Below are positions 1-32,080 of a stretch of DNA of 49,015 nucleotides, one piece after another. The stretch spans positions 1 through 49,015 of the IMG/VR virus record IMGVR_UViG_3300028393_000098. One strand, written 5' to 3'. Source of the DNA: a virus. Within the stretch, counting starts at the first letter, position 1, and each line of letters opens with the position of its first letter. Made by a program: the position numbers and the translations under genes. A model generated the notes under the pieces. It searched no databases and had not been told where the DNA came from. It was given only the letters and a program-made list of their open reading frames with translations.

Positions 1-243
1 TATTTCCGTGAGAAAATGTTAGAACTTGGTTCGCATGAATATGAAGACTGTCGTTATAATTTTGTTGAACATCGTAGACGTAATCACGAGCATCCAATGT
101 GGCAAAAACTTTGGAATGGTGTATCAGAATCTATGTGGACTAGTCAAGAATGGTATGATTACTGTGAAGATAAACTTGGTCATGAAGAATTAATGAAATA
201 TCATCCAGAAGCAAATGCTTCTTCACTGGAGGGATTCTTTTAA
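1..243 (+). CDS. Hypothetical protein, 5' end cut by window edge
   Basis: The frame is open from base 1, so the ATG at 16 may be internal and the real start may lie upstream. The visible part is about 80 residues, acidic and rich in Trp, Tyr and His (for example MWQKLWNGVSESMWTSQEW), with no signal peptide or membrane segment. I do not recognise a family. It ends in TAATG, overlapping the start of the glutamine amidotransferase gene, so the two are probably co-translated and it may belong to the same pathway. Confidence 0.6.
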   Translation, partial: YFREKMLELGSHEYEDCRYNFVEHRRRNHEHPMWQKLWNGVSESMWTSQEWYDYCEDKLGHEELMKYHPEANASSLEGFF

Positions 244-938
244 TGTGTAGCGTCATTGGTGCCCTAATACAGAATCCTACACCAAAGGATTTTGAAATCA
301 TCAGAAATATTTTTGTTGAGTCAAAGATTCGTGGTATGCATGCAACTGGAATGTCGGTTATCGTAAAAGATAAAGTTCTTACATTTAAAGAACCAGTACC
401 AGCGGATCAATTCAGAAAGTTAGATAATTTAGAGGAGATGGTTAATGATGACGGTAATCTTTACCTTATTGGTCATTGTAGATATAGCACTAGCGATTTA
501 CTGTATAACCAACCGATAGCAAACGAAGAACATTCTATTGTTCATAATGGGGTTATCACTCAAGAACTAGCAGAGAACTGGGATAAGATATTTAATTACA
601 AATGCGAAACTAAGAATGATTCTGAATTAGTTTTACACTCGGAATCACCACTAGAAGAATATCAAGATGCATCAATGGCAGTTTGTGAATTATCTTCTGA
701 AAAGAAATTACTAGCATATCGCAATGGTAAACGTCCATTATATTTGACTTCTCTATCAAATGGTATTATAATTACTTCTACTGCTGATATACCAAAACGT
801 GCAGGTATTAGAATTCCAGCTGTTGAAGTACCAATGAATACATATATTACATTTGATGGGGATATGACTATGACTGTTGATGTTGTAAAATCTAATAATA
901 ATGATTTACAGAAAGTAGATTATGAAATATCCAACTGA
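243..938 (+). CDS. Class II (Ntn-type) glutamine amidotransferase
   Basis: A free-standing glutaminase domain of the GlmS/PurF/AsnB class that would release ammonia from glutamine for a partner enzyme. Visible signatures: Cys2 directly after Met (MCSVIGAL), the N-terminal nucleophile once Met is removed; RGMHATG at 30-36; GHCRYST at 77-83, equivalent to GHTRWAT; QP at 90-91; and HNGVI at 101-105. At 231 aa it is only the glutaminase half, with no synthase domain fused. It overlaps the amidoligase gene by 17 bases, so the two probably form a glutamine-dependent ligase. The natural acceptor is unknown. Confidence in the fold is high; the link to the amidoligase is inferred from adjacency. Confidence 0.85.
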   Translation: MCSVIGALIQNPTPKDFEIIRNIFVESKIRGMHATGMSVIVKDKVLTFKEPVPADQFRKLDNLEEMVNDDGNLYLIGHCRYSTSDLLYNQPIANEEHSIVHNGVITQELAENWDKIFNYKCETKNDSELVLHSESPLEEYQDASMAVCELSSEKKLLAYRNGKRPLYLTSLSNGIIITSTADIPKRAGIRIPAVEVPMNTYITFDGDMTMTVDVVKSNNNDLQKVDYEISN

Positions 939-1797
939 TAAATTTACATATGGTATGGAAATAGAGTGGGGTGATGTTCCTCGCTCTTTTTCAATTCCAG
1001 ATAATCTCGGCACATGGGAGTATTCAGAACGAGATATTATTAACTTAAGAGATCCTTACAAATATGTTTGCGCTGACCCACTTGGTGAAACTCCTCCAGT
1101 CGGTGGGGAAATTAATACTAAACCGACTAGAACTTGGCAAGAACAAGTTGACAGGTATTTTGAACTTGAAGAACTATTTAAATCTATCGGTTCTCCACCT
1201 ACTGTTGGCGCAACTGCTCATACTCATATTCATTGTCGTGTTCCTGGGCTACGTGATGACATCGATGCATTAAAGCGTTTGACGAAATATATTAAAGAAA
1301 ATCAAACAACAACTATTGACAGAGTTTATGGTTTTTTTGACCATAATCAAATGAGAGGTGCTAAAGGTTCTAAAATGTATTTGAAGTTTGATGGTGGTCG
1401 AGCACTACCAGATTACATGAGCGATAATATTATCAATCTAGCAACAGACTTTCCTTCATTTATTAAGATGCACGCTGCAGGCAAAGATGGCGTATCAATG
1501 GGTCGCCCATTCCGTTATGCTATTAACATGTATGCGTTAAAACATATTGATACTGTAGAGTTTAGATTATTCCGTGGTACACTAGATAGAACTGAACTTG
1601 AATCATGTTTCCGTTTTGTTCAAGACTTCCTTGATGCTGCATTAAATGATGGACCATGCGTTGATGATTTATTTGCTTTGAATAATTATAAATTCCCTTC
1701 AATGATTTGGGATCTTAATCAGTTCCTTGGTTGGGAGAAAACTAAGCATCCAGAAGATCGTGGAGAAAAGGTAAGAACTTATGTTGAAGTTGTCTAA
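922..1797 (+). CDS. Putative amidoligase (COOH-NH2 ligase, glutamine-synthetase-like fold)
   Basis: Resembles the 'putative amidoligase enzyme' family, predicted ATP-dependent ligases that join carboxylates to amines. Visible elements: GMEIEW at 11-16, the strand with metal-binding acidic residues; GGEINT at 61-66; HTHIH at 100-104; RPFRYAINM near 195-203; and VEFRLFRGTLD at 212-222, the Arg-containing strand typical of the family. Length of 291 aa fits. It overlaps both the glutaminase gene upstream and the GNAT gene downstream, so the three are probably one translational unit. A likely role is forming an amide bond with glutamine-derived ammonia. Substrate is unknown: candidates are an amino-acid-like adduct for DNA base modification, a peptide, or a cell-wall component. 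Confidence 0.75.
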   Translation: MKYPTDKFTYGMEIEWGDVPRSFSIPDNLGTWEYSERDIINLRDPYKYVCADPLGETPPVGGEINTKPTRTWQEQVDRYFELEELFKSIGSPPTVGATAHTHIHCRVPGLRDDIDALKRLTKYIKENQTTTIDRVYGFFDHNQMRGAKGSKMYLKFDGGRALPDYMSDNIINLATDFPSFIKMHAAGKDGVSMGRPFRYAINMYALKHIDTVEFRLFRGTLDRTELESCFRFVQDFLDAALNDGPCVDDLFALNNYKFPSMIWDLNQFLGWEKTKHPEDRGEKVRTYVEVV

Positions 1798-2332
1798 GTG
1801 TTCACGTGCTGATTTTATTTCAGCAATAAACCCTGACAAAGAAGATAACTTCGCCAAGACATTTGTTGCCAAAGCAGATATGCAAGACCAATGGGATTAT
1901 TGTATTGGCGCATTCGATGGTAATGATTTAACTGCTGCAATTATTACCACAATCTCAAAAACCAAACCTCATGTTGCCAACCTTCAACTCTTGCACACTT
2001 TCGTAAAACATAGGGGTAAAGGTTCGGCTCGATTACTCTGTGAGGATTCGTTAAAACGAGCCAGAACGAATGGTGCAACTTACTTCAGGGTATCCTCTGA
2101 GAAGTCTGCAGTGGGCTTCTACGAGCGTCTGGGGTTTAAGTTTTGGGGAGCCCAAAAGAGCGGATGCTCTCTATCAGTGTTTAGAATAGGGGGAGATACC
2201 TTCTTAGAGGGCGACTACGACCTCTCCGATACGACTATCAATAAAGCGGTCAACCGAAAGGGTAAGGGGGGATGTACGGCTCTCTACGACCTTGCAAACA
2301 CCCAAATAAGGGTTAAAGTAGACGATTTTTAA
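1781..2332 (+). CDS. GNAT-family N-acetyltransferase
   Basis: An acetyl-CoA-dependent acyltransferase. Motif A, the pyrophosphate-binding loop, is HRGKGSARLL at 77-86 (R/QxxGxG/A type). Motif B is GFYERLGF at 112-119. The C-terminal 50 residues beyond the core (FLEGDYDLSDTTINKAVNRK region) are Lys/Arg/Gly rich and may bind substrate. The ATG overlaps the amidoligase stop by 17 bases, so it is the third enzyme of a glutaminase-amidoligase-acetyltransferase unit. Codon usage in its last third looks less AT-biased than its neighbours, possibly a sign of separate origin. The acetyl acceptor is not predictable from sequence. Confidence 0.8.
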   Translation: MLKLSKCSRADFISAINPDKEDNFAKTFVAKADMQDQWDYCIGAFDGNDLTAAIITTISKTKPHVANLQLLHTFVKHRGKGSARLLCEDSLKRARTNGATYFRVSSEKSAVGFYERLGFKFWGAQKSGCSLSVFRIGGDTFLEGDYDLSDTTINKAVNRKGKGGCTALYDLANTQIRVKVDDF

Positions 2333-2344
2333 GTCAAATTTCGC

Positions 2345-2373
2345 TTTACTTTAATTGTGAAATAAGGTATAAT
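2345..2373 (+). promoter_or_regulatory. Sigma70-like promoter, near-leaderless
   Basis: TTTACT at 2345-2350 and TATAAT at 2368-2373, with a 17-base spacer and an upstream TTTCGC context shared with other promoters here. The next ATG starts 5 bases after the -10 box, so the transcript should start at or within a base or two of the start codon. Confidence 0.75.
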
Positions 2374-2378
2374 ATATT

Positions 2379-3395
2379 ATGGATTATAGACTCCCAGAGA
2401 ACAATAGAGAAGCATTTATACGCTGGTACGCATGGTCATTAAAATATGATGATTGCGATCCAGCAGTTTGGACTACAAATTATCTCAATAAGCGATACGA
2501 GCATAATGATGAACAACGTCTTTGGCTTGCTTGGTTATATGGCAATACTTATCAACTCCCAACTGCATGGATATTGATGAATGAATTTCCTGATTATGAA
2601 TTAGCAACAGTTGATAGAATTACTCAGTGGAACTCTACAAATTATAAACGACTAAGATATCAAACAGATACAAAATGGAACAAGGGGCATCTTCCAGCAA
2701 TGTTTGCCTCATATCAGCAGTTTATTGGTAATAAAACACAACGAGAAAGATTGGAAGGATTTTATGGATTCAATGAAGAGGACAACTTTAATAATTTGTG
2801 GGAAAGCGTTAAGTCTGGGTTGCATAAGTTTGGTCGCTATTCCACTTGGTTTTATCTTCAGCATCTTAAGCATACCGCTGGTATTCGTATTAGTCCTACT
2901 AGTCTCATGCTGGATGATTTTGATGGCTCTCGTTCTCATCGTAATGGATTACTTTGCGCCCTTGGCAGATATAACGATATGGATAGAAAACTCACTGCTC
3001 AAGAGTATCAAACTCTTGAGTCACAAGCCAAGTATATTCTTACCGAAACAAAGGATAGATTCCCAGATTTGGAAAGGCAAATAGATTTCTTTACAATGGA
3101 AACCTGTTTGTGTTCATTCAAGAAAATCTTTCGTGCTCATCATGGACGTTATCTTGGTTACTACCTTGATAGACAAGCTGAAGAAATAATCAAAGCTGAG
3201 AGTGATGGATGGTATGGTATTGATTGGGATGTTTTATGGGACGCAAGAAATGAAACTATTGATTTCCGTCTAGATCATAAACGTGGTATTGATAAAGAAA
3301 AGTTTTCTTCTTTTATGAATTCAGGTAAAATGGAAAACTTAGAATGGATGTTTGATGATGAAGAACCTATGTTAATTGGATTGGAGAATTTTTAA
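2379..3395 (+). CDS. Probable amino acid:DNA transferase (alpha-glutamyl/putrescinyl-thymine pyrophosphorylase-like)
   Basis: Resembles the phage family thought to replace the pyrophosphate on 5-hydroxymethyl-dU in DNA with an amino acid or polyamine, building hypermodified thymidine. The segments I match from memory are YDDCDPA (23-29), FGRYSTWFYLQ (151-161) and DDFDGSRSHRNGL (179-191), within a long helical protein of 338 aa. No canonical catalytic motif is described that I can check by eye, so this rests on overall resemblance. The kinase that would prepare its substrate is two genes downstream, which strengthens the call. It has its own promoter with almost no leader. It could instead be a different DNA glycosylase-like phage protein. 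Confidence 0.6.
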   Translation: MDYRLPENNREAFIRWYAWSLKYDDCDPAVWTTNYLNKRYEHNDEQRLWLAWLYGNTYQLPTAWILMNEFPDYELATVDRITQWNSTNYKRLRYQTDTKWNKGHLPAMFASYQQFIGNKTQRERLEGFYGFNEEDNFNNLWESVKSGLHKFGRYSTWFYLQHLKHTAGIRISPTSLMLDDFDGSRSHRNGLLCALGRYNDMDRKLTAQEYQTLESQAKYILTETKDRFPDLERQIDFFTMETCLCSFKKIFRAHHGRYLGYYLDRQAEEIIKAESDGWYGIDWDVLWDARNETIDFRLDHKRGIDKEKFSSFMNSGKMENLEWMFDDEEPMLIGLENF

Positions 3396-3811
3396 TGAAT
3401 GATACTATAACACTTACAAATGCTGGCGGAATTTCAAGTAATATTGGCGCAGGAACATATCCTCTTGTTGGTAATGGTGGCGCAGGTTTAACTACCACAA
3501 TTAGCAATGGTGCTTATAATAACAAACCTTCTGTTGATGCTATCATTGATCGCTATGCTTTAAATGAGTTTATAGTTGAGCATCGTGTTCAAGAACAAGA
3601 ACTACTTAAACTTAAAGAACAGAACGTAGATTACGCTGATACTATTAAAGAAAACATGGCTAAGAATCTATCACGTGATATAATTAAGAAAGTAACCTTC
3701 ACCAAGAAACTAGAACACGATACCTTTGTTCATTCTTTCCGTGGACGTTGCTGGGTCTTTACTAAAGAAGAATTAACAAATATGATTCAGGAGATTAAAA
3801 ATGGCATTTGA
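3395..3811 (+). CDS. Hypothetical protein between transferase and kinase
   Basis: 138 aa in two parts. The first 45 residues are low-complexity, Gly/Asn/Thr rich and uncharged (AGGISSNIGAGTYPLVGNG). The rest is charged, helical and probably coiled-coil (residues about 48-95), followed by a short beta-like tail with FRGRCWVFTKEEL. No family recognised. It starts within the stop of the putative amino acid:DNA transferase (TAATG) and overlaps the kinase start, so it belongs to the same operon. It could be an accessory or scaffolding subunit of the modification pathway, but only position suggests that. Confidence 0.75.
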   Translation: MNDTITLTNAGGISSNIGAGTYPLVGNGGAGLTTTISNGAYNNKPSVDAIIDRYALNEFIVEHRVQEQELLKLKEQNVDYADTIKENMAKNLSRDIIKKVTFTKKLEHDTFVHSFRGRCWVFTKEELTNMIQEIKNGI

Positions 3812-4412
3812 TGAAAAGGTAGGTGTAATTGATACTATCAATGTAGAAAGAGTAACCAATCCAGTTAAGACTAGAAAGATTATAGCAGTAGGTGGATCTC
3901 CTGGAACTGGCAAAACTACATTATTTCGTAAATTTATGGAAGATAAAACTTGGTTAGAAGTTTCACCTGCTAAACTAGTCAACGCCAGTTATAATACTGA
4001 GCGAGATCTTTATATTATTGGTAAATACGAAGAGGGTGAAACCTTTGCTGGAACTGACCGACTTTCTATGGCGGTTCAACCACCACTCCAAGAATGGATC
4101 GCTTCTCATAACTGTAATATCCTATTTGAGGGGGATCGGGTTTTTAACCAATCTTTCTTAGAGTTCTGTATGGGACTCCCAAATACCCAATTAGAAGTCG
4201 TATTTTTAAAGGCTCCAAAAAATATTTTAGAAGAACGCTATAGAGAGCGTGGATCTGACCAATCTGATCAATTCCTAAAAGGTAGGGAAACTAAATATAG
4301 TAACCTGATGTCTAATTTTGACTTGATGCCCTATATTACTGAGTTTGCGAACACTAACTTAGAGGAGCAACAGAAGGTACTTGCTTTTTTGGAGAAGCAC
4401 TTTATTAGTTAA
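3801..4412 (+). CDS. P-loop kinase, probable 5-hydroxymethyl-dU DNA kinase type
   Basis: A small P-loop phosphotransferase. Walker A is GGSPGTGKTT at 31-40. Further conserved-looking blocks are FAGTDRLSM (82-90), ILFEGDRVF (107-115; the acidic Walker B-like strand) and GRETKYSNL (161-169; a basic lid-like region following the ERYRERG segment). The GTDRLS and GRETK blocks resemble phage kinases found beside amino acid:DNA transferases that phosphorylate 5-hydroxymethyl-dU in DNA. That function is inferred from resemblance and from the transferase two genes upstream. At 203 aa it is about the size of a deoxynucleoside monophosphate kinase, which is the main alternative. Confidence 0.7.
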   Translation: MAFDEKVGVIDTINVERVTNPVKTRKIIAVGGSPGTGKTTLFRKFMEDKTWLEVSPAKLVNASYNTERDLYIIGKYEEGETFAGTDRLSMAVQPPLQEWIASHNCNILFEGDRVFNQSFLEFCMGLPNTQLEVVFLKAPKNILEERYRERGSDQSDQFLKGRETKYSNLMSNFDLMPYITEFANTNLEEQQKVLAFLEKHFIS

Positions 4413-4431: not shown

Positions 4432-5127
4432 ATGACTTACCTAGAGAACGCTAATTTTGACTGGATGGATTTACTCAATTTCTATGAGCGTCCATTTAGA
4501 GCTAAACTCAACCCATCAAAAGTATGGGTAGATCTAGATTCCTATAAAAATGATCCTATCGGGTTATCAAATTATGTTAGAAAATGGCGCACTAAGATTC
4601 AGTGGTGTCGTGAAAAGTCTAAAGCAAAATGGACTGAGCACTATGTGGCAATTGGTGGTGAGTATAATACAGAAGGACGCCAGATAACCCTTCAAATCTA
4701 TACACAAAAATATAGCATATTCCCATTCACCGATAAGTCTTGGGCAGGATTTAAGTTTCGTTTAATACAGACTTTAATGCATGAGATAATCCACTTTATG
4801 CAATATGATAGAAGGGGCGATGAGTGGAGTAACTATGTTGTTCCATATAAAAAAGTCGGAATAGCCAAAAAAGACGAACAGAGAGCATATCTCTCTGAGT
4901 TTGATGAGATACAAGCATATGCGCATTGTGTGTATCTAGACTTTAAAATGCGTAGACCAAATGTAGATATCGACATCCTGTTGAATCGTTATACACACAA
5001 ACGAGATTCTTCTACACTTCACTATTTCTTAAAGACGTTTGATTATGATTTAAGAAACAACATAGCAACCAGAAAAATTATAGACCAAATAGGTAAATGG
5101 GATCGTAAATATAATCGTATAACTTAA
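4432..5127 (+). CDS. HExxH zincin-like protein (possible metallopeptidase)
   Basis: 231 aa counted from the ATG at 4432, which follows an AGGG ribosome site and clears the kinase stop. An in-frame TTG at 4381 is less likely because it would lie inside the kinase gene. LMHEIIHFMQYDRRGD (115-130) holds the zinc-binding HEIIH at 117-121, and EFDEIQAYAH (156-165) supplies a candidate third ligand (Glu). The rest is rich in Trp and Tyr and basic at the C-terminus. The active-site pattern supports a metal-dependent peptidase or an SprT-like protein; the substrate is unknown. Its position directly after the DNA-modification genes may be coincidental, since a late promoter and structural genes follow. 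Confidence 0.65.
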   Translation: MTYLENANFDWMDLLNFYERPFRAKLNPSKVWVDLDSYKNDPIGLSNYVRKWRTKIQWCREKSKAKWTEHYVAIGGEYNTEGRQITLQIYTQKYSIFPFTDKSWAGFKFRLIQTLMHEIIHFMQYDRRGDEWSNYVVPYKKVGIAKKDEQRAYLSEFDEIQAYAHCVYLDFKMRRPNVDIDILLNRYTHKRDSSTLHYFLKTFDYDLRNNIATRKIIDQIGKWDRKYNRIT

Positions 5128-15054: not shown

Positions 15055-16086
15055 ATGCTCTATATAGACAACAAATACGCACAAATCCTTGGCACTCGTC
15101 TAAGGAACTTCAAACAAAAGAAAGACTACCTCTGGAACTACTCATGTCCAGTGTGTGGTGATTCTTCCAAGAACAAACTCAAAGCACGTGGTTACATTTA
15201 TCGTGGTGAGCAAGAGTTATTTGTAAAATGCCATAATTGTGGATATGGAACTAATCTTGGTAATCTTATCAAGTATGTTGATACTAAACTTTATGATGAA
15301 TATGTTTTAGAACGCTACAAAGCTGGCGCATCAAAACATCATGATCACAAAGACGTTAAAGTAACAAGCGTCATTCTAGAAACTCCCAAAGAAGAATTAC
15401 TCGAAGATGATATTCTCTTTAGCTTATCTCGTTTAGATAAGTTACCATTAACGCATCCTGCAGTTCAATATGTTATTGATAGAAAGATTCCAAAAGATAA
15501 ATGGAGTCTTTTGTATTTTGCGCCAAAATTTAAAGCATTTGTTAATTCGGTAACACCAAAGTTTCAAGAACCAATTCAGGATGAACATCCTAGGATGGTT
15601 ATTCCTTTCTTTACTCCAGCTGGTAAATGTTTTGCTTTCCAAGGCAGAGCATACGGTAAAGAAGAACCTAAGTATTATACTATTAAAGTTGATGAAACAC
15701 AGGAGAAGATTTATGGACTCGATCGCTTGGATTATAGCAAACGTATATATGTTGTTGAAGGACCGCTTGATTCGTTATTTTTACCTAACGCAATCGCTGT
15801 ATCAGGAGCAAGTTTTGACACTCCTACTATTCGTCGCTTGCTTGCTAATGCTACAATAGTAATGGATAATGAACCAAGAAGCAAAGAGATAACTAAGTTC
15901 CTTGAAAAGAATATTGAAGCAGGATATTCTGTTTGTATGTTTCCAGAATATATTGATCAAAAAGATATTAATGATATGGTTTTACATGGTAATATGAAGC
16001 CTGACGAGATTATTAATACCATAAATACAAATACCTTCTCTGGCATGGAAGCGAAATTAAAGTTTAGTAGTTGGAAAAAAATATAA
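15055..16086 (+). CDS. DNA primase, T4 gp61-like
   Basis: 343 aa, the usual length for T4 gp61, which makes RNA primers for the lagging strand with the replicative helicase. An N-terminal zinc ribbon uses C31, C34, C59 and C62 (SCPVCGDSSKNKLKARGY ... KCHNCGYG). A TOPRIM-like catalytic core follows, with YVVEGPLDSLFLPNAIAVSG holding the conserved Glu and an acidic stretch VMDNEPRS. The short leader argues for early expression. Confidence 0.9.
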   Translation: MLYIDNKYAQILGTRLRNFKQKKDYLWNYSCPVCGDSSKNKLKARGYIYRGEQELFVKCHNCGYGTNLGNLIKYVDTKLYDEYVLERYKAGASKHHDHKDVKVTSVILETPKEELLEDDILFSLSRLDKLPLTHPAVQYVIDRKIPKDKWSLLYFAPKFKAFVNSVTPKFQEPIQDEHPRMVIPFFTPAGKCFAFQGRAYGKEEPKYYTIKVDETQEKIYGLDRLDYSKRIYVVEGPLDSLFLPNAIAVSGASFDTPTIRRLLANATIVMDNEPRSKEITKFLEKNIEAGYSVCMFPEYIDQKDINDMVLHGNMKPDEIINTINTNTFSGMEAKLKFSSWKKI

Positions 16087-16099
16087 TAACGGAGTAAGT

Positions 16100-17899
16100 A
16101 TGGCAGATATAGTGGGTGGCATTAACGTAGATTATTCACGTGATAGTTTATTTGACGAATTAGGTAAACTAAGATTAAAAGAAAGTTATATGAAGGATGA
16201 TGAAGTGAGCCCACAAGAGAGATTCGCTTTTGTAAGTAAAACATTTGGAAGTAATCCAGAACATGCACAAAGACTATATGAATACAGCAGTAAACATTGG
16301 CTCTCTTATTCTACTCCCATTCTCAGTTTTGGTCGTAGTAAGCGTGGCATGCCTATATCATGTTTCCTTAATTATATTGAAGATACTGCAGAGGGACTAG
16401 TTGATAATTTATCTGAAACAAATTGGCTGTCAATGCTTGGGGGTGGTGTTGGTATTGGCTTTGGTATTCGTTCTGCTGACGATAAGAGTACTGGAGTTAT
16501 GCCTCACCTCAAAATGTACGATGCTTCATCACTTGCATATCGTCAAGGGCGCACTCGTCGTGGAAGTTATGCTGCTTATCTTAGCATCGACCACCCAGAC
16601 ATTATCAACTTCTTAGAGATGCGTAAACCAACAGGCGACCAGAATATGCGTTGCTTGAATATGCATCATGGTATTAACATCCCAGATGCGTTTATGGAAA
16701 TTATTGAGAAAGCAATGATAGATCCAAACTTTGATGACTCTTGGAAGCTAGTAGATCCTGCATCAAATGAAGTTCGTGAAACAGTTTCAGCCAAAGAACT
16801 ATGGCAACGTATTCTTGAAATGCGCATGATGACTGGTGAACCATATATTCACTTCATTGATGAATCTAATCGTAAGATGCCTCAATGGTTAAAAGATAAG
16901 GGATTGAGTATTAATCAGTCTAATCTTTGTTCAGAAATTATTCTACCAACCAATGAAAAACGCACTGCTGTTTGTTGTTTGTCTTCATTGAATCTTGAAC
17001 ATTATGATGCTTGGAAAAATGAGCCACTGTTTCTCAAAGACGTTGCTGAGATGCTTGATAACGTGCTTCAATATTTTATTGACAACGCACCAAAAACTAT
17101 TAAGCGTGCAATCTATTCAGCAAAACAAGAACGTAGTATTGGTATCGGTGCTTTAGGCTGGCATGCATACCTTCAAAGAAATAATTTGCCTTGGGAATCT
17201 CCAATGGCTATTGGTAGAAATAAGCAAATCTTTACGCATATTAGAGGTCAATTAGATGAAGCGAACAAACAATTGGGATTGGAGCGTGGTGAAGCTCCTG
17301 ATGCAGTGGGTACTGGGAATAGGTTTAGTCATCTTATGGCTATTGCTCCCAATGCTTCTTCTTCCATTCTCATGGGCAATACTAGTCCTTCTATTGAACC
17401 TTATCGTGCCAATGCTTATCGCCAAGACACTCTATCGGGTTCTCACCTAAACAAGAACAGGTGGTTAGATGAAATTATCCAGAAAGAAGCAGTCAGTCAT
17501 AAAGAGGGTTGGGCAGACGAAGTGTGGTCTAGCATTATTGCGAATGATGGTTCAGTTCAGCATATCGATTGGATGGACCAGTGGACAAAAGATGTTTTCA
17601 AAACTTCTATGGAAATCGACCAGCGTTGGGTCGTCCAACATGCCGCAGATCGGCAAGTATTTATAGATCAGGCGCAATCGTTGAATGTATTCTTTAGACC
17701 AGATAGTCACATTAAATATATTCATGCTGTGCATTTCCAAGCATGGAAGCAAGGATTGAAAACAATGTATTATTGCCGTAGCGATAAGATCGCCAAAGCA
17801 GATAAAGTATCAAAGCGTATAGAAAGAGAAGTCATTAAAGAAATTGACTTACACGCACTAACAGGAGATGCTGACACTTGTTTAGCATGCGAAGGATAA
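16100..17899 (+). CDS. nrdA: Ribonucleotide reductase class I, large subunit
   Basis: 599 aa, the catalytic subunit that reduces ribonucleotides to deoxyribonucleotides. STPILSFGRSKRGMPISCFL holds the first redox Cys; NLCSEI, about halfway, holds the thiyl-radical Cys; TAVCCLSSLNLEHYD provides the partner Cys region; CLACEG at the C-terminus is the redox-shuttle Cys pair. The N-terminal ATP-cone regulatory domain is absent, so overall activity is probably not switched off by dATP, as is common in phage enzymes. GGAG lies 6 bases before the ATG. nrdB follows. Confidence 0.95.
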   Translation: MADIVGGINVDYSRDSLFDELGKLRLKESYMKDDEVSPQERFAFVSKTFGSNPEHAQRLYEYSSKHWLSYSTPILSFGRSKRGMPISCFLNYIEDTAEGLVDNLSETNWLSMLGGGVGIGFGIRSADDKSTGVMPHLKMYDASSLAYRQGRTRRGSYAAYLSIDHPDIINFLEMRKPTGDQNMRCLNMHHGINIPDAFMEIIEKAMIDPNFDDSWKLVDPASNEVRETVSAKELWQRILEMRMMTGEPYIHFIDESNRKMPQWLKDKGLSINQSNLCSEIILPTNEKRTAVCCLSSLNLEHYDAWKNEPLFLKDVAEMLDNVLQYFIDNAPKTIKRAIYSAKQERSIGIGALGWHAYLQRNNLPWESPMAIGRNKQIFTHIRGQLDEANKQLGLERGEAPDAVGTGNRFSHLMAIAPNASSSILMGNTSPSIEPYRANAYRQDTLSGSHLNKNRWLDEIIQKEAVSHKEGWADEVWSSIIANDGSVQHIDWMDQWTKDVFKTSMEIDQRWVVQHAADRQVFIDQAQSLNVFFRPDSHIKYIHAVHFQAWKQGLKTMYYCRSDKIAKADKVSKRIEREVIKEIDLHALTGDADTCLACEG

Positions 17900-17901: not shown

Positions 17902-18894
17902 ATGATCACAAAAACGAAAAACAATTTAACAGACCAACGCACTTATTTTAAACCATTCAACTACCCATGGGCATATGATGCGTGGTTGAAGCACGAACAA
18001 GCGCATTGGCTTCACTCAGAAGTACCAATGGCTGAAGACGTTAAAGACTGGAAAAAGAAACTAACCAATGAAGAAAAACAATTCCTCACGAACATCTTCC
18101 GATTCTTCACTCAAGGAGACATTGACGTTGCTGGCGGTTATGTTAATAATTATCTTCCTTATTTCCCTCAGCCTGAAATAAGAATGATGTTAATGGGTTT
18201 TGCTGCACGTGAAGCATTGCACATTGCAGCTTACTCGCATCTAATTGAAACTCTTGGTATGCCAGAATCAACTTATAATGAGTTTCTAGAATATCAAGAG
18301 ATGAAGGATAAACACGATTATGTTACCGAACTCAGTTCGAAAAATGGTACGTTGGAATCTACAGCGACGCACATTGCTGTATTCTCTGCTTTTACCGAAG
18401 GTATGCAGTTGTTTAGTTCTTTTATTATGCTTCTTAATTTTCCTCGTCATGGTATGATGAAGGGAATGGGTCAAATTGTTACTTGGTCTATTGTTGATGA
18501 AACAATGCACTCTGAGAATATGATTCGTTTGTTTAAAGAGTTTATCAAAGAAAATAATGAAATCTGGAATGATGAACTTAAAGGAAAGATTTATACCATT
18601 GCTGAAAAGATGGTTGAACTAGAAGATAAGTTTATTGACCTTTGTTATCAAGGTGCCGATATGCGTGAGTTGTCTGCAGAAGATGTTAAGAAATATATTC
18701 GTTATATTGCAGATCGTAGACTTATCAGTTTAGGTATGAAGGGCATTTTTAAAATTAAGAAAAACCCATTACCATGGGTTGAAGAAATGATCAATGCGCC
18801 AGTACACGGTAACTTCTTTGAGAATAGGGTTACTGATTATGCAAAGGGTGCGTTGTCTGGTTCTTGGAATGATGTGTGGGGCAAAGCTGCATGA
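17902..18894 (+). CDS. nrdB: Ribonucleotide reductase class I, small (radical) subunit
   Basis: 330 aa ferritin-like subunit that generates the tyrosyl or metal-based radical for NrdA. REALHIAAYSHLIE has the ExxHxxxY pattern (metal ligands Glu and His, radical Tyr). FTEGMQLFSSF and DETMHSENM supply the second Glu and the ExxH ligand pair. I chose the ATG at 17902, preceded by GAAGGA; an upstream TTG at 17878 would sit inside nrdA. It is coupled to the methyltransferase gene by an ATGA overlap. Confidence 0.95.
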   Translation: MITKTKNNLTDQRTYFKPFNYPWAYDAWLKHEQAHWLHSEVPMAEDVKDWKKKLTNEEKQFLTNIFRFFTQGDIDVAGGYVNNYLPYFPQPEIRMMLMGFAAREALHIAAYSHLIETLGMPESTYNEFLEYQEMKDKHDYVTELSSKNGTLESTATHIAVFSAFTEGMQLFSSFIMLLNFPRHGMMKGMGQIVTWSIVDETMHSENMIRLFKEFIKENNEIWNDELKGKIYTIAEKMVELEDKFIDLCYQGADMRELSAEDVKKYIRYIADRRLISLGMKGIFKIKKNPLPWVEEMINAPVHGNFFENRVTDYAKGALSGSWNDVWGKAA

Positions 18895-19430
18895 GTTATA
18901 TAGATCTTTATAAAGAGATGCACTTAGATGAATCTATCTATCCAGGAGATTCATTAAAAGAGCATGTAATTTTTTTAAAAGATCTTATAAAACAATATAA
19001 CCCTGAAACATTATTAGATTATGGTTGTGGTAAGGGTAATCAATATTTTATTGATAAAACTCATATACAATATTTTAATGGTATAATGCCATTTCTATAT
19101 GATCCCGCAGTTGAAACTCATAATACGCTTCCAGATAAACCTGTTGATGGATTATTTTCTACTGATGTATTAGAACATATACCAGAAGAAGAACTGGAAG
19201 CAGTTTTTAAAGAGATGTATAGTTTGTCTAATAAGTTTGTATATCATGGCATATGTACTATTCCAGCAATCGCTAAATTACCCAATGGCGAGAATGCACA
19301 TGTTACAGTTAAACCAGTAGAATGGTGGGTAGACAAAATTTCAAATTATTCTAACAAGACTACTTGGATATATTGTTATGGATTAACAAATAAATTAGTA
19401 AAAATAGAAAATAGGAAAGTTATATGGTAA
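18891..19430 (+). CDS. Class I SAM-dependent methyltransferase
   Basis: 179 aa. TLLDYGCGKGNQY is the SAM-binding motif I (about residues 40-52) and STDVLEHIPEEEL is the acidic/post-I region typical of small-molecule methyltransferases. The start (ATGA) overlaps the nrdB stop. The target is not evident; the family includes sugar, lipid and metabolite methylases, so it is not clearly a DNA methyltransferase (no DPPY/NPPY motif seen). Confidence 0.75.
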   Translation: MSYIDLYKEMHLDESIYPGDSLKEHVIFLKDLIKQYNPETLLDYGCGKGNQYFIDKTHIQYFNGIMPFLYDPAVETHNTLPDKPVDGLFSTDVLEHIPEEELEAVFKEMYSLSNKFVYHGICTIPAIAKLPNGENAHVTVKPVEWWVDKISNYSNKTTWIYCYGLTNKLVKIENRKVIW

Positions 19431-19570
19431 CAAAACAATTCGAATGTCCTTCATGTGAAGCTGAAGGTAAAATTACAGTAAAGGGCGAAGATTTTAAATT
19501 TGAAGATATCGTCTATTGCCCAATGTGTTCAGCTGACATCTATGAGGAAGAAGATCTTGATGAAGAGTGA
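19424..19570 (+). CDS. Small zinc-ribbon protein
   Basis: 48 aa, overlapping the methyltransferase end by 7 bases after an AGGAAAG site. Two CxxC pairs (CPSC at 8-11 and CPMC at 32-35) separated by a charged linker form a probable zinc ribbon with an acidic tail. Such mini zinc ribbons are common in T4-like phages; role unknown. Confidence 0.65.
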   Translation: MVTKQFECPSCEAEGKITVKGEDFKFEDIVYCPMCSADIYEEEDLDEE

Positions 19571-20132
19571 ATATCGTGAAATTTGGAGCACTCCAATTGC
19601 AGAGTATCAATTAGAAGAATCTAATTTACATCAAATGGTAGTAGACATGGTCAATCAACCATATGATAATCAAGGTAATGAGTTTAATATTATGGAAGAT
19701 AAAGATAACAAATTTACACAATGGGTTTTTTCTTGTTGTAAAGATTATCTTTCTAAATTTTATGATAAACTAGATCCAGAACTCCTTATTAAACGAGCAT
19801 GGGTTACTACTCAAAACTATGGTCAGCCAAATCAGGCACACTCCCATGGCGCAACAGATATAATTGCAGTATATTATATTCATGCGTTACCAGAGCATCC
19901 AGATTTAACAGTATATGATCCAAGACCCCCACATATATTCAATGAAGTCAGTTTCTGGAATGATGCGGGTATCCAAATCGCAGATTGTGCAAGACAAATT
20001 TATATTAAACCGATAACAGGAAAATTAATACTGATACCTGGATATTTACTACATGGGGTTGATTCCAATATGAGTAAAGAACCAAGGCTTTCATTAGCAA
20101 TGAATATTAAAATTAAAAGAGGTAATGAATGA
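19560..20132 (+). CDS. 2-oxoglutarate/Fe(II) oxygenase (TIGR02466-like)
   Basis: 190 aa from the ATG at 19560, overlapping the zinc-ribbon gene. The double-stranded beta-helix motifs are AHSHGATDIIAVYYIHALP with the proximal His, a YDPRPPH segment, and LIPGYLLHGVDSN with the distal His; RLSLAMNIKI provides the 2OG-binding Arg. It matches the phage 2OG-FeII_Oxy_5 pattern (HxH...VYY...DPR...H). The substrate is unknown; enzymes of this class hydroxylate proteins, nucleotides or small molecules. Confidence 0.75.
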   Translation: MKSEYREIWSTPIAEYQLEESNLHQMVVDMVNQPYDNQGNEFNIMEDKDNKFTQWVFSCCKDYLSKFYDKLDPELLIKRAWVTTQNYGQPNQAHSHGATDIIAVYYIHALPEHPDLTVYDPRPPHIFNEVSFWNDAGIQIADCARQIYIKPITGKLILIPGYLLHGVDSNMSKEPRLSLAMNIKIKRGNE

Positions 20133-20392
20133 TATTAGTTTTTAAACTTTCTACTAATGAGATTATCATTGGTAATGTAACAGGTAATTCTCCATTATCA
20201 TTTAATGTATCATATCCAGCGATTTTTGGTCAATCTAATTTAGAGCCATACATGGGTTTCGGAATGGGCACTGTTACATTATACACATCAAATATTGTAG
20301 CTACTACAAAACCAAATTCAGATATAGAAAATGCATACAATGCTATGTTTGGTCCAAATTCAACCGCAGATTTAGGTTGCACAAAAGTATAA
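20129..20392 (+). CDS. Small beta-barrel protein, possibly Sm/Lsm-like
   Basis: 87 aa, starting within the upstream stop (ATGA). The order (MILVFKLSTNEIIIGNVTG, FNVSYPAIFG, GTVTLYTSNIVATTKPNS, IENAYNAMFG) resembles a small five-stranded barrel conserved in marine T4-like phages that recalls Sm folds. That is only a resemblance. Function unknown. Confidence 0.6.
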   Translation: MILVFKLSTNEIIIGNVTGNSPLSFNVSYPAIFGQSNLEPYMGFGMGTVTLYTSNIVATTKPNSDIENAYNAMFGPNSTADLGCTKV

Positions 20393-20405
20393 TAAATAGT
20401 CCACT

Positions 20406-20831
20406 ATGTGGACATTTAATAACAGTATCATTGAAGAATTACCAGAAGACTGCGTTGGCTTTGTTTATTTAATTACGAACAAAGCCACAAGTCGCATGTA
20501 TGTAGGTAAAAAATTAGCTAAGTTTTCTAAGACAACCTATAAAATGGTTACTCAGAAAAATGGAATAAAGAAAAGAAAAAAGATTAAGTCAAAAATTAAT
20601 AGTGATTGGCTTGATTATTATGGTTCTAGCATAGAACTAAATAAAGATGTTGAGTCTCTTGGTAAAGAAAACTTTATACGTGAGATTTTATTTTTTTGTA
20701 AATCTAAGGCAGAGTGTTCTTACGTGGAAGCACGTGAGCAATTTGGAAGGAAAGTATTAGAATCAGACGACTATTATAATGGACAAATCTCAGTAAGAGT
20801 CCATGGTTCTCATATTAAAAATAAACTATGA
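20406..20831 (+). CDS. GIY-YIG nuclease (SegE-like)
   Basis: 141 aa. GFVYLITNKATSRMYVGKK (residues 18-36) is the GIY-YIG motif. DWLDYYGSS, FIREILFFCKSKAE, YVEAREQFGRKVL and YYNGQ follow in the order seen in SegE-type phage endonucleases. A basic KRKKIKSKI segment probably contacts DNA. No second DNA-binding domain is present. It may be a mobile seg-type endonuclease or a DNA-processing enzyme; it is free-standing, not in an intron. Confidence 0.75.
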   Translation: MWTFNNSIIEELPEDCVGFVYLITNKATSRMYVGKKLAKFSKTTYKMVTQKNGIKKRKKIKSKINSDWLDYYGSSIELNKDVESLGKENFIREILFFCKSKAECSYVEAREQFGRKVLESDDYYNGQISVRVHGSHIKNKL

Positions 20832-21979
20832 CATATCTACTATTCGCAACAGCATTGGCATTATCTGCTTGCGCTGCATTTTATTCTATAATGGGATTAG
20901 TTGCAATTTTTGCAGCGTCAGTCGTGCCCATTTTCATTATGGGATCTTTGCTTGAAGCATCTAAATTAGTAGTTGCGTCATGGTTATATCGTAATTGGAA
21001 AGAAGTTCCAGTATTACTAAAAACATACTTTACAATAGCATTAGTTATTTTAATGTTGTTGACATCAATGGGTATTTTTGGGTACTTATCTAAAGCTCAT
21101 TTAGATCAAGCAATCCCCTCTGGTGATGTAGCAGCAAAATTATCATTAATAGATGAAAAGATTAAAACCGAAAAGGAAAATATAAATGCAAATCGTAAAG
21201 AACTTTCTCAACTGGATTCTCAAGTTGACAGCACCCTTTCAAGAACCACAGATGCCAACGGAACAGAGCGTGCCATTTCCATTAGACGAGGACAGCAAAA
21301 AGATCGTCAAAGAATCCTTAAAGAAATCGGGGACACGCAAGCCAAGATCGCCAAGTACAACGAAGAACGTGCACCAATCGCTTCAGAAGTCCGTAAAGTC
21401 GAAGCAGAAGTTGGACCAATCAAATACATAGCAGCATTAATTTATGGAGATAATCCAAGCGAAGATATTTTAGAAAAATCAGTCCGCTGGGTTATTATCC
21501 TTATTGTTTCAGTATTTGATCCATTGGCAGTTTTATTATTAGTTGCTGCTAACTGGAATCAAAAACGCGAAGATGAAAATGCTGGTTTAGAAATATTTGC
21601 TGGTAATCCAGAAGTAGTTACAACTCCTCCTGAAGAACCATATCAGCATGGATATCCGCCAGTATCTAATCCAGTAAACTGGACAACTACATACTATGAG
21701 CCAGAAGTAGAAACGACTGAAGTTAAATTAGAAGATAATTTCTGTACAACAGATGATGCTCATTTATCTGTTAAAGGTGATGAACATATTGTTGAAAAAA
21801 CAGTTGTTAATTATGTTCCTACTACAGAAGATGAATTAGATATTAAAATTGATGATACAACTGAATGGGAACCTAAGTTATATGATCGTGTAGCAGATAG
21901 GAATGCTGATATACCATCACGAACAAAAGCATTCTTGAAAAAAGCAAGAGAAGTATTCTCTTCTTCAGAAAATACTTAA
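20828..21979 (+). CDS. Multi-pass membrane protein with coiled-coil
   Basis: 383 aa. Hydrophobic segments lie at about 1-25, 27-50 and 65-90 and again at about 217-240. Between them is a charged coiled-coil (about 105-195). A long acidic, Thr/Glu/Pro-rich tail (245-383) is probably cytoplasmic and flexible. The N-terminus contains LSAC but is followed by more membrane helices, so I do not call a lipoprotein. Similar proteins occur in marine T4-like phages; function unknown. Confidence 0.65.
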   Translation: MTYLLFATALALSACAAFYSIMGLVAIFAASVVPIFIMGSLLEASKLVVASWLYRNWKEVPVLLKTYFTIALVILMLLTSMGIFGYLSKAHLDQAIPSGDVAAKLSLIDEKIKTEKENINANRKELSQLDSQVDSTLSRTTDANGTERAISIRRGQQKDRQRILKEIGDTQAKIAKYNEERAPIASEVRKVEAEVGPIKYIAALIYGDNPSEDILEKSVRWVIILIVSVFDPLAVLLLVAANWNQKREDENAGLEIFAGNPEVVTTPPEEPYQHGYPPVSNPVNWTTTYYEPEVETTEVKLEDNFCTTDDAHLSVKGDEHIVEKTVVNYVPTTEDELDIKIDDTTEWEPKLYDRVADRNADIPSRTKAFLKKAREVFSSSENT

Positions 21980-22008
21980 AATTCTAATCTGTATAAAAGG
22001 ATCACTAA

Positions 22009-22239
22009 ATGTTATCAGAATTAAGAGAAATAGCAAGTTTGGGTGGTCCAGCTTCAAAATTAGCAAATGAATTATTAGTTGTTCGTGAACAATATGAGTC
22101 GGAAGAATTAACGAAAGAAGAGTATCAAACTATCGTTCAAGAAATTTGGCAAGTCAAAGCTGTTAAAGAATTATCAAATAATAAAAATGCATTTAGTTAT
22201 ATTGTATCTGCTGCTCAAGCCATGTATATGTTTGTCTAA
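22009..22239 (+). CDS. Small helical hypothetical protein
   Basis: 76 aa, predicted all-helical (ELLVVREQYESEELTKEEYQ). It has a clear AGGATCACTAA ribosome site. The segment LTKEEYQTIVQEI resembles the short 'SHOCT-like' helical pair found in many small proteins, but too weakly to name. Confidence 0.6.
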   Translation: MLSELREIASLGGPASKLANELLVVREQYESEELTKEEYQTIVQEIWQVKAVKELSNNKNAFSYIVSAAQAMYMFV

Positions 22240-22252
22240 TTGAAAGAAACCA

Positions 22253-22471
22253 ATGTTATCGTTATATAAAATACTATTGAAACTGTGTCAACTTCTAGCT
22301 TGGATTCTCGCATTTATTATAGTTCCAATATTTTCGGCTCTTTGGGTAATATGCACAGGATCGCTTGTCATAACATTTCAAATTCTACTAGTTCTTCACC
22401 CATCCCTTGGGCGAAGACTTGATCGGGTCTTTCAAACGAACTTTTTAGACCATTTATTCCCTACTAAATAA
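22253..22471 (+). CDS. Small membrane protein
   Basis: 72 aa. One or two hydrophobic helices cover residues 8-48 (LLAWILAFIIVPIFSALWV), with a basic Arg-containing C-terminus. A terminator follows 25 bases after the stop, so it ends the operon. Function unknown. Confidence 0.55.
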   Translation: MLSLYKILLKLCQLLAWILAFIIVPIFSALWVICTGSLVITFQILLVLHPSLGRRLDRVFQTNFLDHLFPTK

Positions 22472-22495
22472 CTTTTCTAAATCAATAACTTACGT

Positions 22496-22520
22496 AAACC
22501 CTACTTTTTGTAGGGTTTTT
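22496..22520 (+). terminator. Intrinsic terminator
   Basis: Stem AAACCCTAC/GTAGGGTTT with a TTTTT loop and a T tail. A promoter begins 12 bases later, forming a terminator-promoter unit that is repeated elsewhere in the window. Confidence 0.8.
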
Positions 22521-22531
22521 CAACATTTCGC

Positions 22532-22560
22532 TTTACTTTAATGCAAATCTAGCGTATAAT
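22532..22560 (+). promoter_or_regulatory. Sigma70-like promoter
   Basis: TTTACT at 22532-22537 and TATAAT at 22555-22560, 17-base spacer, in the recurring TTTCGCTTTACTTTAAT context directly after a terminator. Confidence 0.8.
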
Positions 22561-22570
22561 AGTTGTATAA

Positions 22571-22753
22571 ATGATGAAAAAGGTTACTATGAATGATTAT
22601 ATAAAAGGAATTACTGATGCTGGTGCTGACCTGTCTTCTGGTTGGCTCCCTGATAATTTTACTCTTGATTCTGTGGTTAATCAATTACGTGTTATGATTG
22701 GTGCTACTGATTCTTACATCGCTGGCTACTTGTCGGTTATCTATTCTAAGTGA
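22571..22753 (+). CDS. Small hypothetical protein
   Basis: 60 aa if started at 22571, only 10 bases after the -10 box; the ATG at 22589 (54 aa), with AAGG five bases upstream, is an alternative. The sequence (YIKGITDAGADLSSGWLPDN, LDSVVNQLRVMIGATDSYIA) has no known motif. Confidence 0.5.
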   Translation: MMKKVTMNDYIKGITDAGADLSSGWLPDNFTLDSVVNQLRVMIGATDSYIAGYLSVIYSK

Positions 22754-22761
22754 GGGTTTAA

Positions 22762-22914
22762 ATGGCTTCAGTAAAAAAACTATGGGAAGATATAAATTAT
22801 CTTCTAGACACCACTAAGTGGTCATGTGATGAAATTGCAAATGCGTTAAAATGCCCGATTGAATGGGTAAATGATATAGTTGAACAAAGATGGAAGGAAG
22901 CAATAAGTGAATAA
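22762..22914 (+). CDS. Small helix-turn-helix-like protein
   Basis: 50 aa. WSCDEIANALKCPIEWVNDI (residues 20-39) has the spacing of a helix-turn-helix (sensing helix, turn, recognition helix), so it may be a tiny DNA-binding regulator. It overlaps the MazG-like start by 8 bases. No match to a named family. Confidence 0.55.
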   Translation: MASVKKLWEDINYLLDTTKWSCDEIANALKCPIEWVNDIVEQRWKEAISE

Positions 22915-23191
22915 AATGAATGAGCAACAAAAAGAAATCCTATTGATTACTCAAGAGGAATGTGCTGAAGTAACCCAAGCGATTAGCAAGGTATTTCGAT
23001 TTGGTATGGAAGATTCTTATAATGGTGAAACTAATAAAGCTCATCTAGAAGAAGAACTAGGTGATTTGATGTGTATGATTGACCTAGTGATCGATTCAGG
23101 TATGGTTAGTGAATCAGCAGTTATGGCAGCCAAAGCTGAGAAGATGAATAAACTACTCTATTGGACAAATATTTTTAAGGAAGTGGCTTGA
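22907..23191 (+). CDS. MazG-like nucleotide pyrophosphohydrolase
   Basis: 94 aa all-alpha NTP pyrophosphatase-like protein. QEECAEVTQAISKVFRFG (residues 16-33) carries the ExxE-type metal motif and AHLEEELGDLMCMIDLVID (45-63) the ExxD motif. Such enzymes hydrolyse dNTPs or (p)ppGpp-like nucleotides and in phages tune the nucleotide pool. GTG at 22907 follows GGAAGGAAG at ideal distance; ATG at 22916 is the alternative. It ends in a TTGA overlap with the phosphatase. Confidence 0.8.
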   Translation: MNKMNEQQKEILLITQEECAEVTQAISKVFRFGMEDSYNGETNKAHLEEELGDLMCMIDLVIDSGMVSESAVMAAKAEKMNKLLYWTNIFKEVA

Positions 23192-23604
23192 TACGATTTA
23201 TCGAAAATGTCAGTAAGAGTGATGTGTTTCTAGGGCATCACTATGATGCTGGTCCAAATGCAATGTTAATTCGCATTCAAGATCCTGCTGAGGAGTTTGG
23301 CAAAATCAAATATCCCTTTAAAGAGGTATATGAGTTTGAATTTCTTGATGCTGAAGATAACGATGGGTTTGAAGAAGAATGCAAAATTCAAGATGAACAA
23401 GCTGAAGAGATTATTCATCTGTTACAACGTGCTTTAGAAAATAGAATGAATGTAGTTGTTCACTGTCACGCTGGTATCTGCCGTAGTGGTGCAGTAGTTG
23501 AAGTTGCAACGATGATGGGATTTACTCCATCTGATAGATATCGTCAACCGAATCTACGTGTTAAACATAAAATGATGAAAGTGCTGGGGTTGACATATGA
23601 CTGA
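23188..23604 (+). CDS. Dual-specificity/tyrosine phosphatase-like protein
   Basis: 138 aa. The active-site loop is HCHAGICRSGA (C(X)5R, about residues 91-101), with a possible general acid in the preceding FLDAEDNDG region. The start is an unusual TTG sharing bases with the MazG stop, with AAGGAAG upstream; no ATG is well placed. It could dephosphorylate host proteins or nucleotides. The phage-specific family is small and substrates are unknown. Confidence 0.8.
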   Translation: MIRFIENVSKSDVFLGHHYDAGPNAMLIRIQDPAEEFGKIKYPFKEVYEFEFLDAEDNDGFEEECKIQDEQAEEIIHLLQRALENRMNVVVHCHAGICRSGAVVEVATMMGFTPSDRYRQPNLRVKHKMMKVLGLTYD

Positions 23605-23755
23605 AGATCGTAAAATGATAATGGTTGCAGTATTAGAAGGTAAACTACCAGCTGATCGTGTAACAATGGAAGAGATTAATGAAGTTCAAGATCTTGTGTT
23701 TGAGTTGATTGCAGAAAGAGTTTCTCCATTTGCAACTCATGATACAATACAATAA
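23597..23755 (+). CDS. Small acidic hypothetical protein
   Basis: 52 aa, overlapping the phosphatase end by 8 bases. Helical, Glu-rich (MEEINEVQDLVFELIAER). The stop lies 2 bases before the next promoter. No motif recognised. Confidence 0.5.
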   Translation: MTEDRKMIMVAVLEGKLPADRVTMEEINEVQDLVFELIAERVSPFATHDTIQ

Positions 23756-23757
23756 AT

Positions 23758-23786
23758 TTGCTTTGTAAGAGGATAACGTGTATAAT
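23758..23786 (+). promoter_or_regulatory. Sigma70-like promoter, leaderless type
   Basis: TTGCTT at 23758-23763 and TATAAT at 23781-23786, 17-base spacer. The ATG at 23793 lies exactly 6 bases after the -10 box, so transcription should begin on the start codon. Confidence 0.7.
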
Positions 23787-23792
23787 AAGACT

Positions 23793-23921
23793 ATGAGACC
23801 TAGAAATCCAGTTGCTAAGGATTTAAGAACACCAAAGTACCGCATGCGTACTGTGGAGTCTAAGGTTAAGTATATTCGTAAACCAAAACACAGAAAGGTA
23901 GATCATGGACTTGGAGTATGA
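23793..23921 (+). CDS. Small basic protein
   Basis: 42 aa, very basic (MRPRNPVAKDLRTPKYRMR ... YIRKPKHRKV). The N-terminal block resembles a tiny protein I have seen in other marine T4-like phages. It is first in a transcript expected to be leaderless and overlaps the next gene. It probably binds nucleic acid or a polymerase; function unknown. Confidence 0.65.
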   Translation: MRPRNPVAKDLRTPKYRMRTVESKVKYIRKPKHRKVDHGLGV

Positions 23922-24150
23922 ACTTCACAGAGAAGGTTTAACACGATCAGTTAAAATCAAAAGTCATCCGTATGATTTGATTGAATTTACTATCCGTCAG
24001 AAACTTGTAAATGAAGTAGGGAAAGAAATTACCAATAGTGGTCATACATCTTTCTTTCAAACTAAAGAATTCATTGAGTTCTTTGGACCTATAATTAATG
24101 AAATGAAAGTGAGATTAGATAATGGCATTCCAAACAGTATTCAAGAATGA
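23905..24150 (+). CDS. Hypothetical protein
   Basis: 81 aa, mixed alpha/beta (LYELHREGLTRSVKIKSHP-like start), preceded by AAAGGTAGATC. It overlaps its neighbours on both sides. No family recognised. Confidence 0.55.
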   Translation: MDLEYELHREGLTRSVKIKSHPYDLIEFTIRQKLVNEVGKEITNSGHTSFFQTKEFIEFFGPIINEMKVRLDNGIPNSIQE

Positions 24151-24424: not shown

Positions 24425-24609
24425 TTAAATTAATTCTTTGGTTGGCACTTATTATTACCATTATTATTATTGGACCACTTGCAACTATCTGGTCTTTAAA
24501 CACTCTATTTCCAGTTTTAGATATTGCATTTACTTTAGAATCATGGTGTGCTGCTTTAATTCTTGGTGGAGTAATTGGTGGTACAACTGGTCTTTCATTT
24601 AAACAATAA
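24421..24609 (+). CDS. Small two-helix membrane protein
   Basis: 62 aa with hydrophobic helices at about 3-30 and 42-58 (GPLATIWSLNTLFPVLDIAF between). The pattern is common in phage early regions and lacks any catalytic motif. Confidence 0.6.
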   Translation: MIKLILWLALIITIIIIGPLATIWSLNTLFPVLDIAFTLESWCAALILGGVIGGTTGLSFKQ

Positions 24610-24618
24610 GGATATATC

Positions 24619-31902: not shown

Positions 31903-31906
31903 AAAT

Positions 31907-31981: not shown

Positions 31982-31994
31982 AGTTTTCTTTGGT

Positions 31995-32068: not shown

Positions 32069-32080
32069 AAGAAAATTTAT

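Follow-up and report, generated by a model that had tools for sequence, protein, structure and literature searches.

In the hypermodification of thymidine, a DNA kinase phosphorylates 5-hydroxymethyl-deoxyuridine (5hmdU), which transferases subsequently modify (PMC6449724). The Pseudomonas phage M6 encodes an amino acid:DNA transferase (ADDT; gp51), the 5hmdU DNA kinase HMUDK (gp54), HMUDK_hel (gp55) and a thymidylate synthase (TS) homologue (gp58), along with pyridoxal phosphate (PLP; gp52) and photolyase-like (gp53) tailoring genes. The window analysed here, one entire IMG/VR virus record of 49,015 bases (IMGVR_UViG_3300028393_000098), is a piece of a T4-like phage genome with aquatic bacteria as hosts, and it begins with a unit that has in common with M6 an ADDT, a gp54-like kinase and the expected 5-hydroxymethyluracil (5hmU) pathway. 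In place of the TS-type hydroxymethylase of M6, the window type has a TET/JBP dioxygenase, and in place of gp52 and gp53 it has an amidoligase, a glutamine amidotransferase (GATase) and a GNAT acetyltransferase; HMUDK_hel was not found in the T4-like loci. Iyer et al. (2013) had reportedly already predicted modules that combine TET/JBP, ADDT and a kinase. Such a module, with a Ploopntkinase3-type kinase, is shared by the Rhodococcus phage Tonitrus, where it has already been named thymidine hypermodification, and the mycobacteriophage Zemanar; as described or shown, the modules of these two phages are without GATase, amidoligase and GNAT and have a ParB-like gene instead (PMC11955845).

We give a probability of about 0.9 to the reading of the window unit as a thymidine-hypermodification operon. 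It is supported by profile matches, by gene order in hundreds of loci, and by the reappearance of this amidoligase in thymidine-modification systems of an unrelated type. A first-pass annotation, made from the letters of the window alone, had proposed for 243–4412 a candidate locus of thymidine hypermodification in which amide-forming enzymes do the tailoring. All of its open reading frames are present and the proposal is borne out in gene content, while the left limit has to be moved, the unit reaching into a TET/JBP gene that is cut by the window edge.

Amino acid:DNA transferase and P-loop kinase

The product of the gene at 2379–3395 (plus strand, as are all genes discussed for the unit) matches the Pfam ADDT family PF18724, alias aGPT-Pplase, to which M6 gp51 also belongs (E value 8.9e-21; 75.1 bits, cut-off 26.2). 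Matches of any strength to this ADDT occur in 376 of 50,697 phage records. The gene at 3801–4412 encodes a P-loop protein of the 5hmdU DNA kinase superfamily, Ploopntkinase3 subfamily (PF18751; E value 7.7e-7, over the cut-off), that also matches PHROG 800 (3.8e-14). M6 gp54, designated HMUDK_HMUD1 or "5-hmdU DNA kinase" in Pfam, belongs to the same PHROG (2e-39). When the window-type kinases were aligned by HHalign with gp54 and the TS-type kinases, the probability was 98.1 (E value 8e-14) over 125 columns, extending beyond the Walker A loop; PF18748 itself was not matched by the product of 3801–4412. The protein is a homologue of gp54, and its kinase activity is predicted. Both enzymes had been named from the letters alone, and these profile searches confirm them.

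PHROG 800 carries the name "terminase small subunit", which we rejected for the kinase because gp54, the 5hmdU kinase of M6, bears the same label. In one related locus (L238:3211–4260) a low-molecular-weight (LMW) phosphatase domain (PF01451) is naturally fused to a Ploopntkinase3 domain. This fusion suggests that the LMW phosphatase may act on the kinase product or control it.

TET/JBP dioxygenase and the probable origin of 5hmU

The first 243 bases of the window (1–243) hold the C-terminal 80 codons of a TET/JBP 2-oxoglutarate (2OG)-Fe(II) dioxygenase gene whose upstream part is missing because the record begins inside it. This tail is 80–84% identical to the C-termini of relatives of 437 aa and similar lengths, and the full-length relative L003:5649–6962 (437 aa) matches Tet_JBP (PF12851) with an E value of 9.6e-25 (87 bits, cut-off 34.9), as do relatives from L049 and L039. 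The stop codon overlaps the start of the GATase gene by one base in the window (TAATG), and the median distance at this junction in 228 loci is -1 base. Among related TET/JBP sequences, fragments counted, an RTA-x-HxD-type motif is present in 210 of 235 and HGNT in 193 of 235, the iron-site residues falling outside the window.

No TS homologue (PF00303) was found in the window or in any of the TET/JBP-type relatives checked, which include seven records of 148–247 kb. Since relatives of up to 247 kb carry no TS-type hydroxymethylase, thymine is probably oxidised to 5hmU in situ, within DNA, by the TET/JBP enzyme, as judged for this phage from its relatives. The first-pass annotation had noted that no hydroxymethyl-dUMP synthase is seen in the window and had counted the absence of a hydroxymethylase from the genome as a refutation. 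The absence itself holds, but the expected type of source was mistaken, and it would not refute thymidine hypermodification because TET/JBP would supply 5hmU. ThyX was considered as a hydroxymethyl source and rejected, being present in only 9 of 20 relatives, with no fixed link to ADDT, missing from the window slot, and unneeded given TET/JBP. Its gene lies between primase and nrdA in relatives (e.g., G001:52615–53190) and is cleanly missing at window positions 16086–16100.

Indirect support comes from the Stenotrophomonas phage DLP6, listed among phages with restriction-enzyme-resistant DNA (PMC8228603), which has a TET/JBP homologue of 47% identity. No homologue of ADDT, GATase or amidoligase was seen in the 30-kb DLP6 region examined, and the phage is therefore silent on the tailoring branch.

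Glutaminase, amide ligase and acetyltransferase

The glutaminase-amidoligase-acetyltransferase unit previously placed at 243–2332 was recovered in full. The product of 243–938 matches GATase_6 (34.7 bits, cut-off 27) and is a class II (Ntn, N-terminal nucleophile) glutamine amidotransferase domain, proposed to be either an ammonia source or an amide hydrolase. The N-terminal Cys2, at the place of the class II nucleophile, is conserved in the relatives together with GHCRYST and HNGVI. The product of 1781–2332 is a GNAT acetyltransferase (Acetyltransf_10; E value 4.7e-11, above the curated cut-off).

The gene at 922–1797 lies between the two and encodes a putative carboxylate-amine (amide) ligase of the Amidoligase_2 superfamily. 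An AlphaFold2 model computed from an alignment of 43 family members has a pLDDT of 94.1 and a pTM of 0.92, and its 50 best Foldseek matches in the PDB are glutamine synthetases, GshA-type and YbdK carboxylate-amine ligases, and the Pup ligase PafA. The E values of these matches (2e-4 to 1e-2, with probabilities up to 1.00) are modest and the TM-score is only about 0.4, as is expected for similarity at the superfamily level; a sequence search of the PDB with the ligase profile gave no match. The motifs GxExE, DP, GGE, H, R and TxExR are invariant over the 43 sequences (G11, E13, E15, D52, P53, G61–E63, H104, R198, T211, E213 and R215), positions that fit a predicted ATP/metal site. On the strength of the model, the protein is assigned as a carboxylate-amine ligase of the glutamine-synthetase fold. 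The family is nearly confined to phages, with three weak, bacterial matches in 84,980 genomes. One distant homologue, in Vibrio phage 2.275.O (L118:5890–7002), lies beside a 7-deazaguanine cluster (QueC/QueF/GTP cyclohydrolase) and a separate Ntn glutaminase.

Gene order among related loci

Overlaps of 1–17 bases join the genes of the operon, apart from a 46-base gap 5' of the ADDT gene. A scan with close amidoligases returned the order TET/JBP-GATase-amidoligase-GNAT-ADDT-kinase wherever the flanks suffice, with few exceptions due to contig ends, and the order is kept over a wide divergence, GATase identity falling to about 45%. The window ADDT was used to collect a first set of 80 loci; those among them that have GATase as well as ADDT carry between the two either an amidoligase and a GNAT (18) or a lone GNAT-like gene, "GN2" (43), and never both, and in one a divergent amidoligase is present with an LMW phosphatase. 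Among 85 ADDT loci with long flanks, 37 are of the window type, 18 have a phosphatase in place of GNAT, 14 are of the GN2 type, and 16 are of other types. These sets of loci were collected through their similarity to genes of the unit and hold some contigs twice, so that the counts do not stand for frequencies in the population. In L073 a glycosyltransferase-like gene (326–1459; weak PF00534 match), possibly an extra tailoring enzyme, stands between GATase and amidoligase, and several B-type loci have a gap of comparable length just before the amidoligase.

The reading of the unit as decayed, non-functional passenger genes might draw on the first gene, which is truncated at the record edge. 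Measured against one orthologous locus, however, dN/dS is 0.06–0.20 for the enzyme genes, the catalytic motifs are intact and gene order survives large divergence, and we regard decay as scarcely credible.

The same ligase in M6-like loci

A scan with a divergent amidoligase led to M6-like loci that combine ADDT, amidoligase, LMW phosphatase, kinase, HMUDK_hel and a TS homologue, among them one in the isolate phage Simon. Pfam matches bear out ADDT, HMUDK_hel and Thymidylat_synt in both L264 and L281, and GATase_6 and GNAT as well in L281; the order GATase-ADDT-amidoligase-GNAT-HMUDK_hel-TS is found in L279 and L281. Of the distant amidoligase loci, 27 non-redundant ones are flanked by 5 kb or more on each side; 24 of these have ADDT, to be set against the 376 of 50,697 phage records noted above, and 24 have a 5hmU source, 25 a phosphatase and 16 a GATase. 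The cluster of phage Simon (L117, PQ683277; 4927–13084) is unannotated and has amidoligase and LMW phosphatase where M6 has PLP and radical-SAM-like genes.

The residues corresponding to Cys146 and Asn177 of the E. coli TS are Cys and Asn in all 20 TS homologues compared. By the Asn177/Asp177 rule, Asn177 indicates dUMP and not dCMP as the substrate (PMC8670742), and the retention of this dUMP-type residue argues for adducts on uracil/thymine. The tailoring genes thus pass as a unit between two unrelated 5hmU routes, which would be hard to explain unless these genes act on 5hmU-derived DNA.

Membership in the TET/JBP family alone leaves the base undecided, and phages are known to have TET enzymes with cytosine as their target; the dioxygenase of the unit might instead oxidise 5-methylcytosine, the later enzymes acting on 5-hydroxymethylcytosine. 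Yet no C5-cytosine methylase (PF00145) was detected in 15 records, including those of 165 and 174 kb, ADDT and the kinase belong to the families that serve in 5hmdU systems, and the TS-type relatives that share the amidoligase keep Asn177. A cytosine target is thus quite improbable.

Proposed pathway

In the pathway that we infer from sequence, as regards each reaction, the step order, the amino acid and the final base, the TET/JBP enzyme would oxidise the thymine methyl group in phage DNA to give 5hmU, and the P-loop kinase would phosphorylate the hydroxymethyl group. The ADDT would then swap the (pyro)phosphate for an amino acid. The amidoligase would most likely use ATP to activate the carboxylate of the adduct and form an amide, with ammonia drawn from glutamine by the GATase, and the GNAT might acylate the free amine. 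This would leave in the DNA an aminoacyl-methyl-deoxyuridine that is amidated, acetylated or both and that would shield the DNA from nucleases. We consider post-replicative thymidine hypermodification by this full pathway likely; the exact amide step, ligase fed by GATase ammonia, is put forward only tentatively, at slightly under even odds.

Several observations weigh against parts of this scheme. The window amidoligase alone falls under the PF12224 (Amidoligase_2) cut-off (E value 0.046; 14 bits versus 22), the amidoligase of the relative L250 being over it (23 bits). Relatives of the kinase are also found next to terminase genes in phages that have no ADDT annotated in the vicinity. The record cuts off part of the TET/JBP gene, so that an intact gene in this phage is presumed from relatives. 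Lastly, the amidoligase and glutaminase genes, which the first-pass annotation had taken for a pair, are both real but form no obligate pair: GATase occurs without amidoligase in the 43 GN2-type loci, and amidoligase without GATase in TS-type loci and phage Simon. Because each occurs beside ADDT without the other, the GATase may not feed the ligase.

The GATase could rather serve the ADDT, ammonia from glutamine acting as the nucleophile to give 5-aminomethyl-dU, which the GNAT would acetylate; the amidoligase, if present, would add a further acyl or amino-acid group. In the GN2-type loci the GATase is adjacent to ADDT or one gene away, in L238, L245, L252, L253 and L279–L281 it lies directly 5' of ADDT, and all 28 GATase loci have an ADDT. 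Both T4-like cassettes with GATase and GNAT would suit acetylation of an amine. In contrast, the B-type cassette (18 loci) has GATase and amidoligase without GNAT, and ADDT homologues of known function reportedly transfer amino acids (Lee et al. 2018/2022). We hold this use of the GATase to be rather unlikely.

Beyond the window, we are inclined to propose a widespread, modular class of phage systems in which an amino-acid adduct of 5hmU is finished by amide ligases of the glutamine-synthetase fold, together with GATase, GNAT or a kinase-fused LMW phosphatase, to give undescribed bases, the tailoring genes being swapped between two kinds of system, one of which oxidises thymine in DNA while the other makes 5hmdUMP beforehand. 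In two independent architectures the amidoligase family goes with ADDT, a 5hmU kinase and a source of 5hmU, which would make a class of amide-bearing DNA bases predictable and open to testing and would assign a function to phage amidoligase and GATase genes now filed as cell-wall or metabolic. The resulting base may be so far undescribed and may resist bacterial defences, and the proteins are potential enzymes for writing new chemistry onto thymine in DNA.

Neighbouring genes and the remainder of the window

The gene at 3395–3811, between transferase and kinase, encodes a 138-aa protein without assigned function. It is the fastest-evolving gene of the unit (dN/dS 0.40), its AlphaFold model is uninterpretable (pLDDT 58), and its membership in the unit is doubtful. 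The neighbouring gene at 4432–5127, outside the proposed pathway, encodes a putative metalloprotease of 231 aa with an HExxH motif and only a weak SprT-like match; it was not detected in more distant loci such as L186–L194. In the relatives of 165 and 174 kb, which have a near-identical gene order, DNA polymerase, UvsX and a DnaB-like helicase lie directly upstream of the locus.

Elsewhere in the window, the dCMP deaminase (30743–31198) and MazG-like (22907–23191) genes, earlier adduced as fitting an altered thymidine supply, are both present but are non-specific as evidence and say little on thymidine modification. An array of 25 tRNA genes (31829–36128) serves most amino acids. Two further 2OG-Fe(II) oxygenase genes, 19500–20132 (PHROG 81) and 25755–26405 (PHROG 61), are unrelated to TET/JBP, and 34596–35126 and 42469–43215 match PHROG 274, labelled DNA endonuclease V, the sequences themselves being oxygenase-like. 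A DNA-level search of phages with the window gave 0 matches, and nothing useful matched in an NCBIfam search.

Comparison with known systems

In the Caulobacter phage Cr30, a stretch of about 9 kb holds TET/JBP, ADDT and a homologous kinase; searches there gave no homologue of GATase or amidoligase, and a weak match to a TET-associated glycosyltransferase and an inositol-1-phosphate synthase are present instead. The Cr30 genes at 18209–24682 (L110), annotated as hypothetical or SNF2, are a candidate for another thymine modification.

Class II GATase genes also lie near amidoligase genes in phages LUZ24 and phiEco32 (profile E value 1e-16 in LUZ24). A cell-wall or peptide role has been suggested for phage amidoligase and GATase (PMC10580990, citing Iyer 2009), by which the GATase-amidoligase-GNAT genes of the window would modify the host cell wall or make a small anti-superinfection peptide, ADDT being a mere neighbour. 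Genes of this kind are present in LUZ24, where the 13 genes shown include no ADDT, kinase or TET/JBP. However, a search of the LUZ24 region with the amidoligase profile A3 gave no match, so that any relationship of the ligases is undetectable by it; the window family accompanies ADDT and a source of 5hmU in two architectures that are unrelated, the unit overlaps the TET/JBP gene, and its cassettes alternate in one slot. We judge a cell-wall or peptide role very improbable.

The 5cxmC-glycine pathway (CmoA/CmoX/CmoY) of Synechococcus phage S-B43 shares with the proposed thymidine pathway an ATP-dependent amide ligase acting on a DNA-base carboxylate: CmoY carries out amide ligation on 5-carboxymethylcytosine, and some CmoY homologues have a glutamine amidase domain (PMC12783734). 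It differs in its cytosine target, its AMP-forming ligase of another fold and its Cx-SAM chemistry, the window type being without a C5-methylase-type enzyme in the 15 records. A literature search returned no paper that links amidoligases with thymidine modification, although Lee 2018, 2022, Iyer 2013 or Burke 2021 may contain an earlier mention. To our knowledge, the tailoring enzymes of thymidine hypermodification (radical SAM, PLP, flavin, acetyltransferase) include no amide ligases. In toto, the core of TET/JBP, ADDT and kinase is already described, and the tailoring branch of amide ligase, GATase and phosphatase appears to be new.

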